A DNA stretch of 36,015 nucleotides from the NCBI GenBank assembly GCA_021815205.1, contig JAKAHD010000007.1, forward strand, positions 1 through 36,015, given 5' to 3'. Below, piece after piece: positions 6,480 through 36,015 of this stretch; the stretch's first letter is position 1; each line of letters begins with the position of its first letter. The translations under genes and the position numbers were made by a program. The stretch is from a bacterium (lineage in GTDB: Bacteria > Patescibacteriota > Minisyncoccia > UBA6257 > GWB1-50-10). Under the pieces are notes generated by a model, which saw nothing but the letters and a program-made list of their open reading frames with translations, ran no database searches and was not told where the DNA came from.

Positions 6480-6832
6480 AAAAAATTTCAGGGTGAAGCC
6501 CAAGCAGGCGGGCAAAAAGGAAGGGGGTTGGGGGGAAGGAATTTTTGCCCGCTTGCTTTTGAGCGGAGGCATGGCGGAAGGGGGGTTTGGGGGGAATTCC
6601 GCCATGCCGGAGCGAATACAAAAAGAGGCCGCACCCGCCGCCCGCTCTGTCAGGAGCGGAAGCCAGTCAAAAAGTTTTCTTTTCCTTTTAGAAGAAAAAA
6701 ATCGGCGCGCGCAAATTAAAAAATGTAAAGAAAACTTTTTGGCTGGCTGGCGAGCGTTAGCGAGCGGCGGCGGGGCGGCTTCCTTAGTCGGGGTTCTGTT
6801 CAAAAAATGTTCGAACATCGTCCAAAAACGAC
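6480..6832. repeat. ~350-bp terminal inverted repeat, copy B (right of R-M cassette)
   Basis: Reverse complement of 2011-2363 with few mismatches. Confidence 0.95.
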
Positions 6833-6838
6833 CGCAAA

Positions 6839-28748: not shown

Positions 28749-31232
28749 ATGAGATGCAACCGATATTGGCTATGGTCTGCGGCGGCAGTGCTCTTTCTTT
28801 TTGCGGGAGCGGCGCTTGTTTCTGCCGCGTCCCCAGTGCCCGCCCCGCCCTCGGGACTCACCGCGTCCGTACTCTCCGCCTCGCGCGTCGCGCTCTCATG
28901 GACGAATAACGCGACGAACGCGACAGGCCTCTTGGCACACGAGTCGCAGTTTTCAAACTTCTCAACCGATCAGGTGATTCCACTTGCTCCGGATGCCACT
29001 GCATATACATTTGCGGGACTCTCCTCAGAGACCCAGTACTATTTCCGTGTTGACGCGTGCAATAGTTCGGGATGCGCACAATCAAGCGTGGTCTCCGCGA
29101 CGACCGGGAGTCCCGGCGGATTCGGACAGCCCATCGGATTTGCCGCGACCGCAATCTCCGCGTGTCGGATTGATCTGGGGTGGGACGCACAACAGGCGAC
29201 GGATCACTTCGAGATTAAGTATGAAGCGAATGCGTCTAACCTCTTTTCCGGTTTCAGTACCACCTCGACTATTTGGAATGTAAACAGTTACCAGATGGCA
29301 GGACTGTCGATCTCGACGCCCTACTTGTTCCAGGTGCGCGCGTATGATGCGAGCGGCAACGTATCCGCGTGGTCCGCGAGCGCGAAAGCCAGAACAATGG
29401 ATATGCCCGCGCCTGGCGCGCCCGCATTCTCCTCTTCGAAGGGAGGAACGGGAAACGCGCAGATGACGCTCGCGTTTGCGTGGAATGGCACGGTTCCCGC
29501 ATCGCCCTACACGGGGAGCTTTATTATCGAGGAGGCGACATCTACGGACGGAACGAATTTCAGTTCCTTTTCCGTACTCGATTCGGTGCCCGCAAGCCTC
29601 ACCTCTTACAGCACCGCCGGAAGTTTGAATCCTTCGCTTGTGTACAAATTCCAAATGAAGAGTTCGGAGACGAGCATCGGTTGCGCGCCGAGCCAAGCGG
29701 TGTATTCTGCGTACGCAACGGCAATTGCGGTACCGACCATTCCCTCGCATCTCGCGGCGAGCTACGCCTATACTCCCTCGAATCCTCCCGTGAATCTCTC
29801 ATGGAACGCGAGCAAGGTGCCGAGCAGTGGGCAGAACTATTACGAAGTGTGGCGCGGTACCTCGCCGTCAAGCATGACCTATCTCGATAAGGTAACAAGC
29901 GGCACCTCGTATGCCGACGCGAGCGTGGCATCAAACACCACCTATTTCTATAAGGTGCGCGCGTGCAATGAGAACGGCGCGGGAGGCATCGGATGCTCCG
30001 ATTTTTCGAATCAGGATTCGAGGACGGTCGCGAACGCGCCCCAGCGGCTTGCCGCAACGGTGTCAGTAATCCACACTGGAAATCCAAGCACCGCAGACGC
30101 GCAGATTACATGGGATAACACCTTCCCCGAGTTCAACTACTATCTCGAGCGAAGTGATGACGGGGGGACTACCTTCACGCAGATAGGAGGAGCAATTGCG
30201 GGCCCAAGGAGCAATGTGAGCAGTGTAGGTCCTATCTTTGATAATGGGCTCGCGATGGGGAAGACGTACATCTATCGCGTGCGTGCCTATTTCGGCGGCA
30301 CGTCATACTCGGATTATTCGAGTCCCGCAACGCTTAATCTGAATATCAAGCCATTAACCGGATGGGCGTGGGCGGATGCGGGGAATGCGGGCGGCGTGCC
30401 GCACGGGATCGGGTGGATCAAGTTTGATTCGAACACCTCGCCGACCGATGGCGTTCCCTACGGCGTGTATGTGGCAAGCGATGGCACCTTGAGCGGCTAC
30501 GCGTGGAGCGGCTTAGCGTGCAACGCGAACGAGAATCGTCCCGCGAACTCCACCTGCGGCTACGGCTGGCTCTCGTTCAATGCGAATGAACTTACGGGAT
30601 GCCCTGACGGAAACTGTACCGCGAAGTATGACCAGCAGAAAAACCAACTCTCCGGATGGGCGAGATTTTTGAACGGGAAGAATGCGCAGGGAAACGGCGC
30701 CTGGGACGGCTGGGTGAGTTTGGATATGAAAGGAGGCGAACCATCGTATGCGGTATACTATAATCCAACCACGAAGAAGTTTGATCAGAGCAACTCCGGA
30801 GTCACCTCCTACGCCTGGGGTTCCACTGTTACGGGATGGATGGTGTTCCCGTATGTAGAAGGGGATATGTCGGGGGTAGGGATAATAAAAGATATTAAAA
30901 ACCTGCAAGCAACCTCGCTCGATTGTGTGAGTAGTAGTAATTGTCCCGTGCAGTTGAGCTGGACGAATCCATCAGGGTCTAATTTTAAACAGATTTATGT
31001 TTTTAGATATAATGGAGATTTTGGGCATGACGCGCCAAATCAATGTGGTGTCATTCATAACGACTCTGAGTTGAGGCAGTGTAGAGATAAATTATTTCAA
31101 ACCAACAAACCACCATTCAAAGTGTTTACTACACCTTCTATACTGACTCCCGACAAGGCGGTGCAAGTCTCAATAGATGGACTTAATCCAGGCACAACCT
31201 ACAGCTTCTTCATACGAGGAATGAGCCAATAA
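28749..31232 (+). CDS. Secreted multi-domain fibronectin type III protein with GWxxF-type repeats
   Basis: Repeated PSGLTASVLSASRVALSWTNNATNATG..., YYFRVDACNSSG..., GWAWADAGN...GIGWIKFDS...GYAWSGLACN...YGWLSFN. Confidence 0.85.
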   Translation: MRCNRYWLWSAAAVLFLFAGAALVSAASPVPAPPSGLTASVLSASRVALSWTNNATNATGLLAHESQFSNFSTDQVIPLAPDATAYTFAGLSSETQYYFRVDACNSSGCAQSSVVSATTGSPGGFGQPIGFAATAISACRIDLGWDAQQATDHFEIKYEANASNLFSGFSTTSTIWNVNSYQMAGLSISTPYLFQVRAYDASGNVSAWSASAKARTMDMPAPGAPAFSSSKGGTGNAQMTLAFAWNGTVPASPYTGSFIIEEATSTDGTNFSSFSVLDSVPASLTSYSTAGSLNPSLVYKFQMKSSETSIGCAPSQAVYSAYATAIAVPTIPSHLAASYAYTPSNPPVNLSWNASKVPSSGQNYYEVWRGTSPSSMTYLDKVTSGTSYADASVASNTTYFYKVRACNENGAGGIGCSDFSNQDSRTVANAPQRLAATVSVIHTGNPSTADAQITWDNTFPEFNYYLERSDDGGTTFTQIGGAIAGPRSNVSSVGPIFDNGLAMGKTYIYRVRAYFGGTSYSDYSSPATLNLNIKPLTGWAWADAGNAGGVPHGIGWIKFDSNTSPTDGVPYGVYVASDGTLSGYAWSGLACNANENRPANSTCGYGWLSFNANELTGCPDGNCTAKYDQQKNQLSGWARFLNGKNAQGNGAWDGWVSLDMKGGEPSYAVYYNPTTKKFDQSNSGVTSYAWGSTVTGWMVFPYVEGDMSGVGIIKDIKNLQATSLDCVSSSNCPVQLSWTNPSGSNFKQIYVFRYNGDFGHDAPNQCGVIHNDSELRQCRDKLFQTNKPPFKVFTTPSILTPDKAVQVSIDGLNPGTTYSFFIRGMSQ

Positions 31233-31262: not shown

Positions 31263-31320
31263 TTTCCTAAGTAATTAGAGAAAGAAATTTTAAAAATAAA
31301 TAAGGAAGGAGGTGAGAGAA

Positions 31321-32667
31321 ATGAAAAGAATAACAGTTCTTCTAGGTATATTTTTCTGCGCCTCGTTCCTCACGACGGCGCAGGTACGATCCCAAGAGCG
31401 GCAGATCGGGAAGGTAGTTGACACCGCCTATATCTGGCCGGACAGTTTGAAGGGGAAGGACATTAATATTCATGGAATAGCCGTAGACGACAGCAGTTGG
31501 ATCTTCGTCGCCACCGTGGGAAATGGTTTCAGGGATGGACTCGTATGGCGCTCCAAGAATAATGGCAAGACCTGGGAGCATCTCACGAACGGCCTCCAAG
31601 ATGTTTTCTTTGCGGGAACCCTCTCGATATTTCTTACGAAGCAACAAACACTCCTCGTGGGAGCGCTAAACGGGATCTGGAGATCAACCGACAAGGGAAA
31701 TAGTTGGGAAAATGCCCTCTACGGAAACACGTATGGCTATGATGCGTGGTGCTTTATCCAAGCAAAAGACGGCACAATTTTCTCTGGAGGATCTCAAATA
31801 AGGAAATCCACCGACGATGGGAAAACATGGACAATAGTGCCCAATCTTCCAACGTCCTTCTGGCCAATCGGTTGGTTTACTATGGATGTGTCAGGAAATC
31901 TCTATGCCACTTCAAATGGTGTTCTTAAATCCACTGACAACGGTTCCACATGGAACTGGGCGAACGAGGGGTTGATACAGGATCCGAATCAAACACAAGC
32001 AACAGTGAATCAGATCACCGTAGACCCGCTCACCGGATCGCTTTTCATCTACACTAGTAGGTACAAAAGTAGTAGAATGTTCCGTTCAGATGATGAAGGG
32101 GTGCACTGGATACCGATAAATGACGGTTTTATTGGGACATACTCATCAATTTTCGAGCTTGCCTCGTCCTCTCGATACGGCGTTTTTGCCGGTTTGGATG
32201 ACGGTACCGGAATTTTCTCTTCCATCGACGGGGGAAATAAGTGGCAATATATGGCCCTTGAACACCGAGCTGTTCCCGTGATGGTAGTAATCTGTTTCGC
32301 ATGGGAAGGCGAAGACACGCTTCTTGTGGGAACCGGAGACGGGTTGTACCGCGTGGTACTTTCCACCGCAACCGGCGTTTCACGTGAAACATCCGGAATC
32401 CCAAAAAACTTCTCCCTGTCCCAGAACTATCCGAATCCGTTCAATCCCGCGACGAGTATACAGTATATGGTATCTTGTATATCGCACGTGACATTGACTG
32501 TATACAATACGCTCGGACAGGAAGTAGCAACACTGGTGAATGAAGAAAAACCTGCGGGAAGTTACAGCGTTACTTTTGACGCGAGTAACCTTCCGAGCGG
32601 GGTGTACTTCTATCGTCTCCAGGCAGGCAATTTCACGGAGACGAAGAAGATAATCCTTCTTCGCTAA
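31321..32667 (+). CDS. Secreted beta-propeller (BNR/sortilin-like) protein with T9SS type A C-terminal sorting domain
   Basis: Repeated WRSxNNGKTWE / RKSTDDGKTWT / KSTDNGSTWN; C-term LSQNYPNPFNPATSIQYMVS...LTVYNTLGQEVATLVNEEKPAGSYSVTFDASNLPSGVYFYRLQAGNFTETKKIILLR. Confidence 0.93.
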   Translation: MKRITVLLGIFFCASFLTTAQVRSQERQIGKVVDTAYIWPDSLKGKDINIHGIAVDDSSWIFVATVGNGFRDGLVWRSKNNGKTWEHLTNGLQDVFFAGTLSIFLTKQQTLLVGALNGIWRSTDKGNSWENALYGNTYGYDAWCFIQAKDGTIFSGGSQIRKSTDDGKTWTIVPNLPTSFWPIGWFTMDVSGNLYATSNGVLKSTDNGSTWNWANEGLIQDPNQTQATVNQITVDPLTGSLFIYTSRYKSSRMFRSDDEGVHWIPINDGFIGTYSSIFELASSSRYGVFAGLDDGTGIFSSIDGGNKWQYMALEHRAVPVMVVICFAWEGEDTLLVGTGDGLYRVVLSTATGVSRETSGIPKNFSLSQNYPNPFNPATSIQYMVSCISHVTLTVYNTLGQEVATLVNEEKPAGSYSVTFDASNLPSGVYFYRLQAGNFTETKKIILLR

Positions 32668-33146: not shown

Positions 33147-33482
33147 ATGGCGGAGATCACCAAACAAGACGTGAAAGAAATTATTGTCGGGGCTCTGGAG
33201 CCGTTTGCTAAAGCAGTCCAGGGTGACTTTCAGGAAATTAAGACGCAACTCACCTCGGTTGAGGGTCGCTTAACTTCAGTTGAAGATCGTTTGACTTCTG
33301 TTGATGGCCGTTTGTCCGTAGTTGAGAGTGAACTCAAAGAGTTTAGGGAGAACGCCAGCGAGCTCTTTGCCAAGCTGGACAAATTCATCACCCTTTACGA
33401 AAAGCAGGAACTGGAAACCCGTTCCTTGGCGAATCAGATGGCTCGTCTCGAAGAAAGAGTGAGTAGGTTGGAAACGAAGTAA
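33147..33482 (+). CDS. Small coiled-coil protein with internal heptad repeats
   Basis: LTSVEGRLTSVEDRLTSVDGRLSVVESELKEF; TATAAT 6 nt before the ATG. Confidence 0.75.
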   Translation: MAEITKQDVKEIIVGALEPFAKAVQGDFQEIKTQLTSVEGRLTSVEDRLTSVDGRLSVVESELKEFRENASELFAKLDKFITLYEKQELETRSLANQMARLEERVSRLETK

Positions 33483-33496
33483 TCAAAGGATTACCA

Positions 33497-33566
33497 GATG
33501 CCCTGACGGAAACTGTACCGCGAAATATGATCCGGTGAACAACCAACTCTCCGGCTGGGCGAGTTT
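33497..33566 (+). pseudogene. Fragment duplicated from the FN3 surface protein gene (about 30600-30665)
   Basis: gatgccctgacggaaactgtaccgcgaa[a/g]tatga...aaccaactctccgg[c/a]tgggcgag in both places. Confidence 0.85.
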
Positions 33567-33605
33567 GTTATTAGGAAGTCCGACTTCCTAATGTGATTGA
33601 ACGTG

Positions 33606-33692
33606 GAAATCAGTCAATACATCCCTACGCCTGTGTAGGTGTGAGGATAAAGGGCTTGTACAATAAAAATGTACAAGCCCTGAATATTTTTT
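33606..33692. repeat. Direct repeat, left copy, includes terminator hairpin
   Basis: GAAATCAGTCA...GTGAGGATAAAGGGCTTGTaCaa...atGTACAAGCCCTGAATATTTTTTA; matches 35783-35872. Confidence 0.88.
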
Positions 33693-33773
33693 AAACGCTT
33701 ATGCTATCATGAGACTGTGGTGAAGTACCACGGCAATTTTTATAAGCTAATTTACCTGAAGGAGGTGAAAAAT

Positions 33774-33986
33774 ATGGTAGAAGTGGAAGAGGAAGTGGTG
33801 GAAACCCAGCAAAGATACCTACCTGACCCCATTGTAATCAACGAGAAACCAAAGGGTTCAGTGCCGTTTTTGACTAGATTTGCGAAGAAACCTGATCTCA
33901 AAATCCCCGATATACGGATGGGAAATCAGACATATCTTGGTATAACGAGCCCCGGCGTAGGGGATTATGCAAACGATGATCAATAG
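33774..33986 (+). CDS. Putative graspetide (microviridin-like) precursor peptide, 70 aa
   Basis: SD ggaggtgaaaaatATG; MVEVEEEVVETQQRYLPDPIVINEKPKGSVPFLTRFAKKPDLKIPDIRMGNQTYLGITSPGVGDYANDDQ; VPFLTRF resembles microviridin leader PFFARF(L); Thr/Ser and Asp-rich C-term. Confidence 0.8.
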   Translation: MVEVEEEVVETQQRYLPDPIVINEKPKGSVPFLTRFAKKPDLKIPDIRMGNQTYLGITSPGVGDYANDDQ

Positions 33987-34006
33987 TATATTTGCGCACA
34001 CCGCGC

Positions 34007-34043
34007 AAAAGAGACCCGTTTTTCATTTACGGGTCTTTGTTTT
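34007..34043. terminator. Bidirectional terminator between precursor and convergent TPR gene
   Basis: AAAAGAGACCCG...CGGGTCTTTGTTTT. Confidence 0.75.
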
Positions 34044-34730
34044 GAGTTTTTTGATCTCCTCCTCGAGCGATGTAATGAAGTGAGATTGTTTCATTCTCAG
34101 TCCCCGATACACTTTTTTTCTAAACTCTCTTTTTATCAACTCCTCCGTTTTTATCGCATAAAGAAGCGCCTTCTTGAAATTTTTAATCCTCACATAAAAC
34201 CGGAATAAATTAGAGATTGTCCCGAAATCATTTTTAGGACAGGCCCTGTATTCCTTCTGATACCACGCCTCCGCGTTCTTGATGTCGCCCAATTGTTCAT
34301 ACAAAAAGCCAATTCCAAGTGCGCCGCGTTCTTTTTTGGGAAGTTTCCGCATGAGTTGAAATGCCCTCCTTCCGTACATAAGTGCTCGTGTATAGTCACC
34401 CCGAATACCGAATACCCTCCCGATGCCGTACCACGCGTGCAAATATCGCGGGTCTTCCTTAAGAATCTTCCGATACAATTCCTCGGCGCGATAAAGATGT
34501 ACTCGTGCCGTTCTTTTTTTACCCCCTTTTTCTTGGGCTCTCATCACTACGTGATCGTGAAGGAGCGCAAGGCGATAGATGCAGTCTTTGGAGAGTATGT
34601 ATTTTTGCGCGTACCTCTCGATGATGCGTATTGCTTGAGAATATCGTTCATTCGCAATCGCCTCACCGGAAATTTTATAGATTCGGCTGGTTATTTTCTG
34701 CGGCGCCATTGACTTTGATGTATGTTTCAT
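34023..34730 (-). CDS. TPR repeat protein
   Basis: AEELYRKILKEDPRYLHAWYGIGRVFGIRGDYTRALMYGRRAFQLM...GIGFLYEQLGDIKNAEAWYQKEYRACPKN. Confidence 0.75.
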   Translation of the reverse strand: MKHTSKSMAPQKITSRIYKISGEAIANERYSQAIRIIERYAQKYILSKDCIYRLALLHDHVVMRAQEKGGKKRTARVHLYRAEELYRKILKEDPRYLHAWYGIGRVFGIRGDYTRALMYGRRAFQLMRKLPKKERGALGIGFLYEQLGDIKNAEAWYQKEYRACPKNDFGTISNLFRFYVRIKNFKKALLYAIKTEELIKREFRKKVYRGLRMKQSHFITSLEEEIKKLKTKTRK

Positions 34731-34783
34731 GGTCTATTTCTAGATAGCATAGCATTCAAAAGATGAATAGGAAAGGAGTTGTT

Positions 34784-35776
34784 ATGAAAAATCTGATTTT
34801 GATCGTAACGAACAAGAACGATGAACACGCGGACAGAATCGTAAGCGTATTAGACGAACTTGGTGAACATACGTGCCGTTTCAATACGGAGGCGTTTCCG
34901 CTGAGGATTGCCGCCACGCTTTCATGTTCCGGCGCGTCTCTTAAAATTCCGACAAGAGTAGCAGAAAATAGCGGCCTTGTTGATTTAAACGAGGTAAAGA
35001 GCGTGTGGTATAGAAGGCCAACGCCGCCTCTTATACCGGATAGGAAAACGGAGGAGGGATACGCCCGTTTCATAAAGAATGAAAGCGAGACGGCGCTGTG
35101 GTCGCTTTACACCACGCTTGATGCATTCTGGATAAATCAGCCGCTTTCCCACCGCCTCCTTGAGCGCAATAAGTTATTGCAACTCAAGAAAGCGGCCTTG
35201 GTCGGCCTTACGGTACCGGACACGATCATTACGAACGATCCGGATGTGCTACTGGGTTTTGCCGACGCGCATGGAGGAGTAGTCGCAATAAAACTGCTCA
35301 AGGGGGATTGGTTTAGAGAAAGAAACAGCGAGATACCACTTCTCGTCTTTACACAAAGAGTGGCTTCAGACCAAATCAGGGAACACTATGAAGATATAAA
35401 ACTCACCCCCATTCTTGCCCAACAATATATTGAGAAGGCGCTGGAGTTAAGAGTCACGATAGTCGGAGAAAAAACATTCGCTTGCGCTATTCATTCACAA
35501 GATAGCGAACACACGCGGACCGACTGGAGAGATTATGATCTGGAGCACGTGAAACACGAACCGTTTGAACTGCCGGATGAAGTGCGTGTAAAACTCGGTG
35601 CGTTTATGGAAAAATGCAATTTGAGCTACGGCGCAATCGATATAATTGTTACTCCAGAGGACGAGTACGTTTTTCTTGAAGTGAATCCGAGTGGACAATG
35701 GTTATGGATTGAGGAGCTTACGGGCATGCCAATCTCCAAAACGCTCGCGGAACTCCTTGCGTATCCGCCCCGCTGA
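34784..35776 (+). CDS. MvdC/MvdD-family ATP-grasp ribosomal peptide maturase
   Basis: NKLLQLKKAALVGLTVPDTIITND; AQQYIEKALELRVTIVGEKTFACAIHSQDSEHTRTDWR; LSYGAIDIIVTPEDEYVFLEVNPSGQWLWIEELTGMPISKTLAELL; SD aaaggagttgttATG. Confidence 0.92.
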   Translation: MKNLILIVTNKNDEHADRIVSVLDELGEHTCRFNTEAFPLRIAATLSCSGASLKIPTRVAENSGLVDLNEVKSVWYRRPTPPLIPDRKTEEGYARFIKNESETALWSLYTTLDAFWINQPLSHRLLERNKLLQLKKAALVGLTVPDTIITNDPDVLLGFADAHGGVVAIKLLKGDWFRERNSEIPLLVFTQRVASDQIREHYEDIKLTPILAQQYIEKALELRVTIVGEKTFACAIHSQDSEHTRTDWRDYDLEHVKHEPFELPDEVRVKLGAFMEKCNLSYGAIDIIVTPEDEYVFLEVNPSGQWLWIEELTGMPISKTLAELLAYPPR

Positions 35777-35782
35777 AGTCGT

Positions 35783-35872
35783 TGAAATCAGTCATTAAAT
35801 CCCCGTATCTATGTGTAGATGTGAGGATAAAGGGCTTGTGCAAAACTCATGTACAAGCCCTGAATATTTTTT
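35783..35872. repeat. Direct repeat, right copy, includes terminator hairpin
   Basis: TGAAATCAGTCATTAAATCCCC...GTGAGGATAAAGGGCTTGTGC...GTACAAGCCCTGAATATTTTTTA. Confidence 0.88.
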
Positions 35873-35903
35873 ACGTTACGCGGCACACGCTGTATAGTGA
35901 ACA

Positions 35904-36015
35904 TCAAGGGGTGACAGTGGATAAGTACTGATCGGCCTTTTCTCTTGGAGTGATCCCATTCAACGAGAGATGAATCCGTTCCTCGTTGTACCAGTGGAGC
36001 CATTCGGCAAGGGTG
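35904..36015 (-). CDS. Transposase, integrase core C-terminal fragment, truncated by window end
   Basis: Reverse-strand translation TLAEWLHWYNEERIHLSLNGITPREKADQYLSTVTP*. Confidence 0.78.
   Translation of the reverse strand, partial: TLAEWLHWYNEERIHLSLNGITPREKADQYLSTVTP

Follow-up and report, generated by a model that had tools for sequence, protein, structure and literature searches.

Does a bacterium with a reduced, candidate-phylum genome carry a minimal system for making a cyclised peptide? The question is raised by positions 33774-35776 of the window, the whole 36,015-nt stretch of DNA analysed here, where the first-pass annotation had placed a graspetide locus; the observation was confirmed at these positions. 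The window is the entire contig C2 of a 735 kb genome in 12 contigs with an estimated completeness of 100%, consistent with the label "CPR-like" given to it, and order-mates of this genome are listed at 0.3–1.4 Mb. We consider it highly likely that the region is a minimal locus for graspetide biosynthesis in a candidate-phylum bacterium and works by the mechanism proposed below. It features an intact graspetide-type ATP-grasp ligase, a conserved leader motif, a conserved Thr/Ser-then-Asp core and a conserved layout. Precursor, helper gene and ring-closing enzyme very probably make a cyclised graspetide, a product predicted from the genes. The features of the locus are as follows.

33602..33693, forward strand: two-hairpin terminator element, copy 1, upstream of the precursor, with an intrinsic terminator at 33651-33681
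33774..33986, forward strand: precursor ORF, 70 aa, with the Shine–Dalgarno (SD) sequence AAGGAGGTG directly 5' of it
33864..33881, forward strand: leader motif PFLTRF (P31-F-L-T-R-F36), with P and F invariant in a five-precursor alignment
N51-QTYLGITSPGVGDYANDD-Q70 of the precursor, forward strand: predicted core, with donors T53, T58 and S59 and acceptors D64, D68 and D69
34023..34730, reverse strand: TPR gene, 235 aa, between precursor and ligase
34784..35776, forward strand: ligase ORF, 330 aa, with its own SD sequence AAAGGAG
35780..35873, forward strand: two-hairpin terminator element, copy 2, directly 3' of the ligase stop codon

The distance from precursor to ligase is 797 bp, matching the 0.8 kb annotated earlier. 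The TPR gene is separated from the precursor stop by 36 bp and from the ligase start by 53 bp; it is convergent with the former gene and divergent from the latter. Each of the three ORFs is intact, and the SD sites of precursor and ligase are good; the ligase contains no internal stop or frameshift and may alternatively start upstream, at 34763. Precursor and ligase form two transcription units, separated by a gene on the opposite strand, an arrangement that counts against the graspetide explanation.

The ligase was compared with NCBIfam and Pfam profiles, a check proposed at first pass, when the enzyme was described as MvdC/MvdD-like. The best NCBIfam match was TIGR04187, the ATP-grasp ribosomal peptide maturase profile (6.4e-73), followed by MvdC (3.3e-65), MvdD (4.4e-65) and RimK (6.1e-14); the scores are below the curated cutoffs, and the claim is thus one of family membership, not of orthology to MvdC or MvdD. 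In Pfam, the MvdD pre-ATP-grasp domain PF21068 was matched above cutoff (3.6e-15) and the RimK-family profile PF08443 at 7.7e-05. The RimK matches could suggest a RimK/LysX-like amino-acid or glutamate ligase lying by chance near an unrelated 70-aa ORF. Such matches are, however, expected within one superfamily, and the graspetide maturase profiles are ahead of RimK by at least 50 orders of magnitude.

The best solved relatives by sequence were 5ig8 and 5ig9 (MdnB and MdnC), CdnC, AMdnB and 9bou. An AlphaFold model of the ligase, built from a 23-sequence alignment (pLDDT 90.1, pTM 0.88), gave a predicted fold whose top match was the precursor-bound MdnC-MdnA complex 5ig9 (E 4.7e-32, TM ~0.85). 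MdnC, CdnC (1.1e-30), AMdnB, PruB, MdnB and PsnB (2e-21) were all ranked ahead of RimK/LysX (7.6e-16). Residues K170, K218, E221, R223, D286, E299 and N301 are invariant across the 23 sequences, so the active-site residues are kept. Profiles, solved structures and the modelled fold all favour graspetide synthetases, and precursors are conserved beside the relatives of the ligase. A RimK-like function was rejected on the much stronger graspetide profiles and fold matches, and the reading with an unrelated ORF is hardly credible. The enzyme is hence a predicted member of the graspetide synthetase (ATP-grasp macrocyclase) family. The ligase query had one match only in the window genome, which agrees with the earlier remark that a second ligase is absent.

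The 33774-33986 ORF looks as it had been described: SD-led, 70 aa long, with an acidic N-terminus (MVEVEEEVVE), a GSVPFLTRF segment and the C-terminus MGNQTYLGITSPGVGDYANDDQ / GNQTYLGITSPGVGDYANDDQ. Its PFLTRF, at residue 31, fits the Phhx(1,2)h leader motif. Three SD-led small ORFs in the 36-kb window fit a loose precursor pattern, and the strict pattern P-[FL]-h-x-x-[FLYW] is fitted by the 33774 ORF alone. The canonical microviridin core TxKxPSD was looked for in the precursor core and is absent, as annotated. The arrangement of the core, T-x4-T-x5-D-x3-DD, fails the strict signature TxxxTx(6-10)Dx(1-4)D by small spacing differences and passes the relaxed pattern T.{3,4}T.{4,10}D.{1,4}D; the cores of four related loci (G091, G068, G586 and G160) likewise fail the former and pass the latter.

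A search of the 70-aa peptide against 199 relatives gave two clearly significant matches outside the window genome, both on one contig, G091:C91 (7.8e-6 and 6.2e-5; 5e-9 and 7e-10 in pairwise comparison). This genome belongs to another family than the window genome; its assembly has an estimated contamination of 7%, a point against the main reading. The two precursors are located upstream of the ligase closest to that of the window (53% identical), with an opposite-strand TPR gene between. Their cores are GNQTYVEYTASTNSGDYTNDDA and DKTTYLGLTNSSSGNFSDSAED, which have TY...T in common with the window core. The cores align as GNQTYLGIT-SPGVGDYANDD (window), GNQTYVEYTASTNSGDYTNDD and DKTTYLGLT-NSSSGNFSDSAED; T53 and T58 are invariant in the three precursors, and the C-terminus is acidic in all of them. 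A five-precursor profile (A1), searched against 245 genomes from the order, recovered the same loci and one more cassette in G160, and found homologues only beside TPR/ligase cassettes, except for one weak match in G167 (0.0017). Leaders near that of the window within the family are PFLTRFAK, PFPVRFAE, PFALRFAE, PFPLLFAE, PFPLQFAE and PFLLGFLE, and the cores vary. The earlier assignment of PFLTRF as the leader segment is borne out by its conservation next to related ligases.

Genomes G068 and G586, of the same genus, carry precursors of the form MKTALKEK...PFPVRFAE...YDD[PS]TTVDTTGQYED[VT]RTDE. Among their 66 aligned codons, 35 are identical, 24 differ synonymously only and 7 non-synonymously. 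This corresponds to a dN of 0.061, a dS of 1.28 and a dN/dS of ~0.05, and precursors of this group are thus under strong purifying selection as proteins; the test covers this pair only, the window precursor having no relative close enough. A chance ORF was ruled out by the homologues beside ligases, the pattern scan of the 36 kb and the purifying selection in this pair. As judged from its conserved homologues beside related ligases, the 70-aa ORF is a real, if predicted, graspetide precursor.

The distribution of related loci was studied on 37 distinct ligase loci, nearly all from the same phylum, one of the related ligases coming from Candidatus Wildermuthbacteria. Each locus was scanned for short ORFs preceded by an SD site and encoding a P-h-h-x(1,2)-h leader and an acidic tail. 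Of the 37 loci, 26 have a candidate precursor on the strand of the ligase and 5 have one on the other strand; at least one opposite-strand match (G037) looks genuine, and the same-strand match in G719 is probably false, being a fragment of a larger protein. The scan found no precursor in several loci, e.g., G361, G047, G086 and G154. Ligases at E 1e-40 or better occur in 21 of the 245 genomes of the order, and the cassette is absent from all three congeners examined; the distribution is hence patchy. In a quick ligase tree, the window enzyme groups with those of G091 and G182 (SH-aLRT 95), then G379, G068 and G586 join (support 87), and deeper branches have no resolution. Near the G182 ligase, a weak DUF6624 match (L117 142-711; 1.1e-4, below cutoff) was observed; this family is reported to be frequent in other graspetide groups.

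The order of a forward precursor, a reverse TPR gene and a forward ligase is found in six genomes: the window genome, G091, G068, G586, G379 and G160, in the last of which the ligase is cut by the contig end. This G160 cassette is a second one in its genome (L118 4747-5715, 9397-10628; precursor MKSQGSSAV...DDPTTVSTTDDHEDAESDES, opposite TPR gene); the other, different graspetide ligase of that genome is ~4 kb away.

The opposite-strand gene had been annotated as a TPR gene, and its product indeed matches the Pfam families TPR_16, TPR_12 and TPR_14 above cutoff. In G091, G068, G586, G379 and G160, a homologue is found at the equivalent place and points in the same direction. The protein is most likely a partner or scaffold for the ligase or the precursor. 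TPR proteins commonly bind peptides, and the divergent orientation to the ligase (53-bp gap) and convergent orientation to the precursor suggest separate control; the protein might then be a receptor, or an immunity or sensor protein, for the mature peptide instead of a biosynthetic partner. No DNA-binding domain was matched in it (NCBIfam, Pfam), however, and in G020 the TPR gene is co-directional with the ligase and just upstream of it, an arrangement also compatible with a biosynthetic role. The receptor or immunity function, which would vary a single step and is compatible with the main explanation, is a possibility worth keeping, though an unlikely one. A link to anti-phage defence was dropped, since PADLOC returned a generic weak TPR match only. 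More speculatively still, the window locus, G091, G068, G586, G379 and G160 might form a TPR-dependent graspetide subfamily, whose ligases would not work without the TPR protein and whose T-Y-x3-T ... D-x3-DD cores would form rings of an undescribed connectivity; we hold this proposal to be doubtful.

In the graspetide family, the leader docks on the ligase, ATP activates acidic side chains and Thr/Ser hydroxyls attack them. Most likely, the leader here guides the formation of two Thr-Asp esters, one nested within the other. The PFLTRF helix would dock on the ligase, which with ATP would activate core Asp side chains as acyl phosphates. Attack by Thr hydroxyls would then give two nested macrolactones, in the simplest case T58-D64 as the inner and T53-D68 or T53-D69 as the outer ring; S59 could provide a third ester. 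The predicted mass loss is 36 Da (54 Da if three rings form), and a ring connectivity of a new kind is possible. The leader would probably be removed near G50 by a protease encoded outside the locus. As a guess, the product could act in contact with a host or in competition; functions of these two kinds were also put forward by Makarova et al. 2022 (PMC8939145).

Neither an exporter nor a peptidase is seen within the locus. The C39 peptidase domain PF03412 was not found anywhere in the window genome, and the single PF00664 ABC_membrane exporter is a 588-aa half-transporter of MsbA size on another contig; a dedicated PCAT exporter encoded outside the locus was thus ruled out. These results on maturation and export count against the main reading.

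The cassette is bracketed by two elements of ~93 bp that are 84% identical. Each has two hairpins, the second being the intrinsic terminator; the folding z is −4.9, and the sequence changes between the copies keep the first hairpin foldable. These two are the only full copies in the genome (blastn). A covariance model of the pair found weaker look-alikes on contigs C3 (L158 1598-1693, E 9e-5) and C7 (L162 4294-4377, E 0.001), hence the elements may belong to a small dispersed hairpin family. Rfam reported four tRNAs only over the window and no family for the elements, and a known RNA was thereby ruled out.

Upstream of the precursor, a coiled-coil ORF (33147-33482) is 95% identical (87% at the DNA level) to the ORF directly upstream of the G020 cassette (L099 5162-5518). 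The G020 ligase is only ~39% identical to that of the window and its precursor differs; the same neighbour thus seems to accompany different graspetide cassettes. A diverged copy of the coiled-coil ORF is located on contig C4 (L159 664-957), beside gene fragments like those of the window. In the window, the space from the coiled-coil ORF to the precursor holds a decayed gene piece (33491-33569), 86% identical to 30592-30670 in an 827-aa fibronectin-type ORF, and an IS transposase (rve_3 integrase core) at 35917-36015 (reverse strand) is cut by the contig end. The flanking copies, the shared neighbour and the transposase end suggest a mobile or recombination-prone site.

A true graspetide cassette could have been inserted here and now be silent or decaying. 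It sits at the end of a contig, bracketed by the duplicated terminator-like elements and adjoined by the gene fragment and the transposase end, it contains no exporter or peptidase, and three congeners have no cassette. The intact ORFs and good SD sites, the retained active-site residues and a precursor core conserved with a relative of another family speak against decay, and we rate an unexpressed cassette as improbable.

Proteins with a T9SS C-terminal sorting tail (Por_Secre_tail or the same motif) were observed near three graspetide cassettes: at 31312-32667 of the window, at L099 7560-8996 and around L118 8955. They are unexpected in reduced genomes and were perhaps acquired from a Bacteroidota-like host. 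One partial tail was found in 445 kb of background stretches, hence the association is not statistically established. At the other end of the window, two 356-bp inverted repeats, 97% identical (2007-2362 and 6480-6835), flank N6 methylase and type I restriction specificity genes near a serine recombinase (212-1765), a possible invertible restriction-modification locus.

The six genomes sharing the precursor-TPR-ligase layout firm up the published claim, known from genomes, that ultra-small candidate-phylum bacteria make modified peptides. The loci form a small, expressible test set for the need for the TPR protein, the ring pattern, and peptide maturation and release. The last point concerns a cell in which one ABC_membrane exporter and no C39 peptidase were detected, and the role of the peptide towards a host or rivals likewise becomes testable.

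Compared with known systems, the locus shares the ligase fold and family with microviridin (MvdC/MvdD, MdnB/MdnC). The window PFLTRFA and the microviridin PFFARFL have P, F, R and F in common, in register (4 of 7 positions). Unlike microviridin, the locus contains no TxKxPSD, no core Lys and one ligase instead of two; microviridin proper was ruled out on the absent TxKxPSD core and the single ligase. As in the CdnC (chryseoviridin) and PsnB (plesiocin) systems, one ATP-grasp ligase would form side-chain esters under leader control, as predicted here from the genes. The precursors of those systems carry several core repeats or other spacing, whereas the window precursor has a single short core.

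Carter et al. 2026 described further graspetide groups rich in candidate phyla (groups 27 and 42 of their network contain such phyla) and showed for MirB/MirC that a graspetide synthetase can require a partner protein (PMC13097080). The rosaritide system MirB/MirC resembles the window locus in having a conserved protein beside the synthetase; MirC is a PpiC-type isomerase-domain protein, and the candidate partner here is the TPR protein (PMC13097080).

Makarova et al. 2022 reported graspetide loci with Phhx(1,2)h leaders in two CPR branches (PMC8939145). The first-pass interpretation was supported overall, with the qualification that these published loci make a graspetide in a CPR genome less surprising. 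As in both branches, a reduced-genome host, here of probable candidate-phylum origin, a graspetide ATP-grasp ligase and a short Phhx(1,2)h precursor are combined, Thr donors precede Asp acceptors, and cores differ widely between loci. TPR genes are often present in branch 1, as here, and most, not all, of its cores fit TxxxTx(6-10)Dx(1-4)D (PMC8939145); the window core, compared with the published description, misses this strict signature, which counts against the main reading. No cluster-23/DUF6624 gene or peptidase was seen in the window locus, unlike in the CPR branches (PMC8939145). The locus is a well-supported further example with a slightly different core, not a new kind of system.
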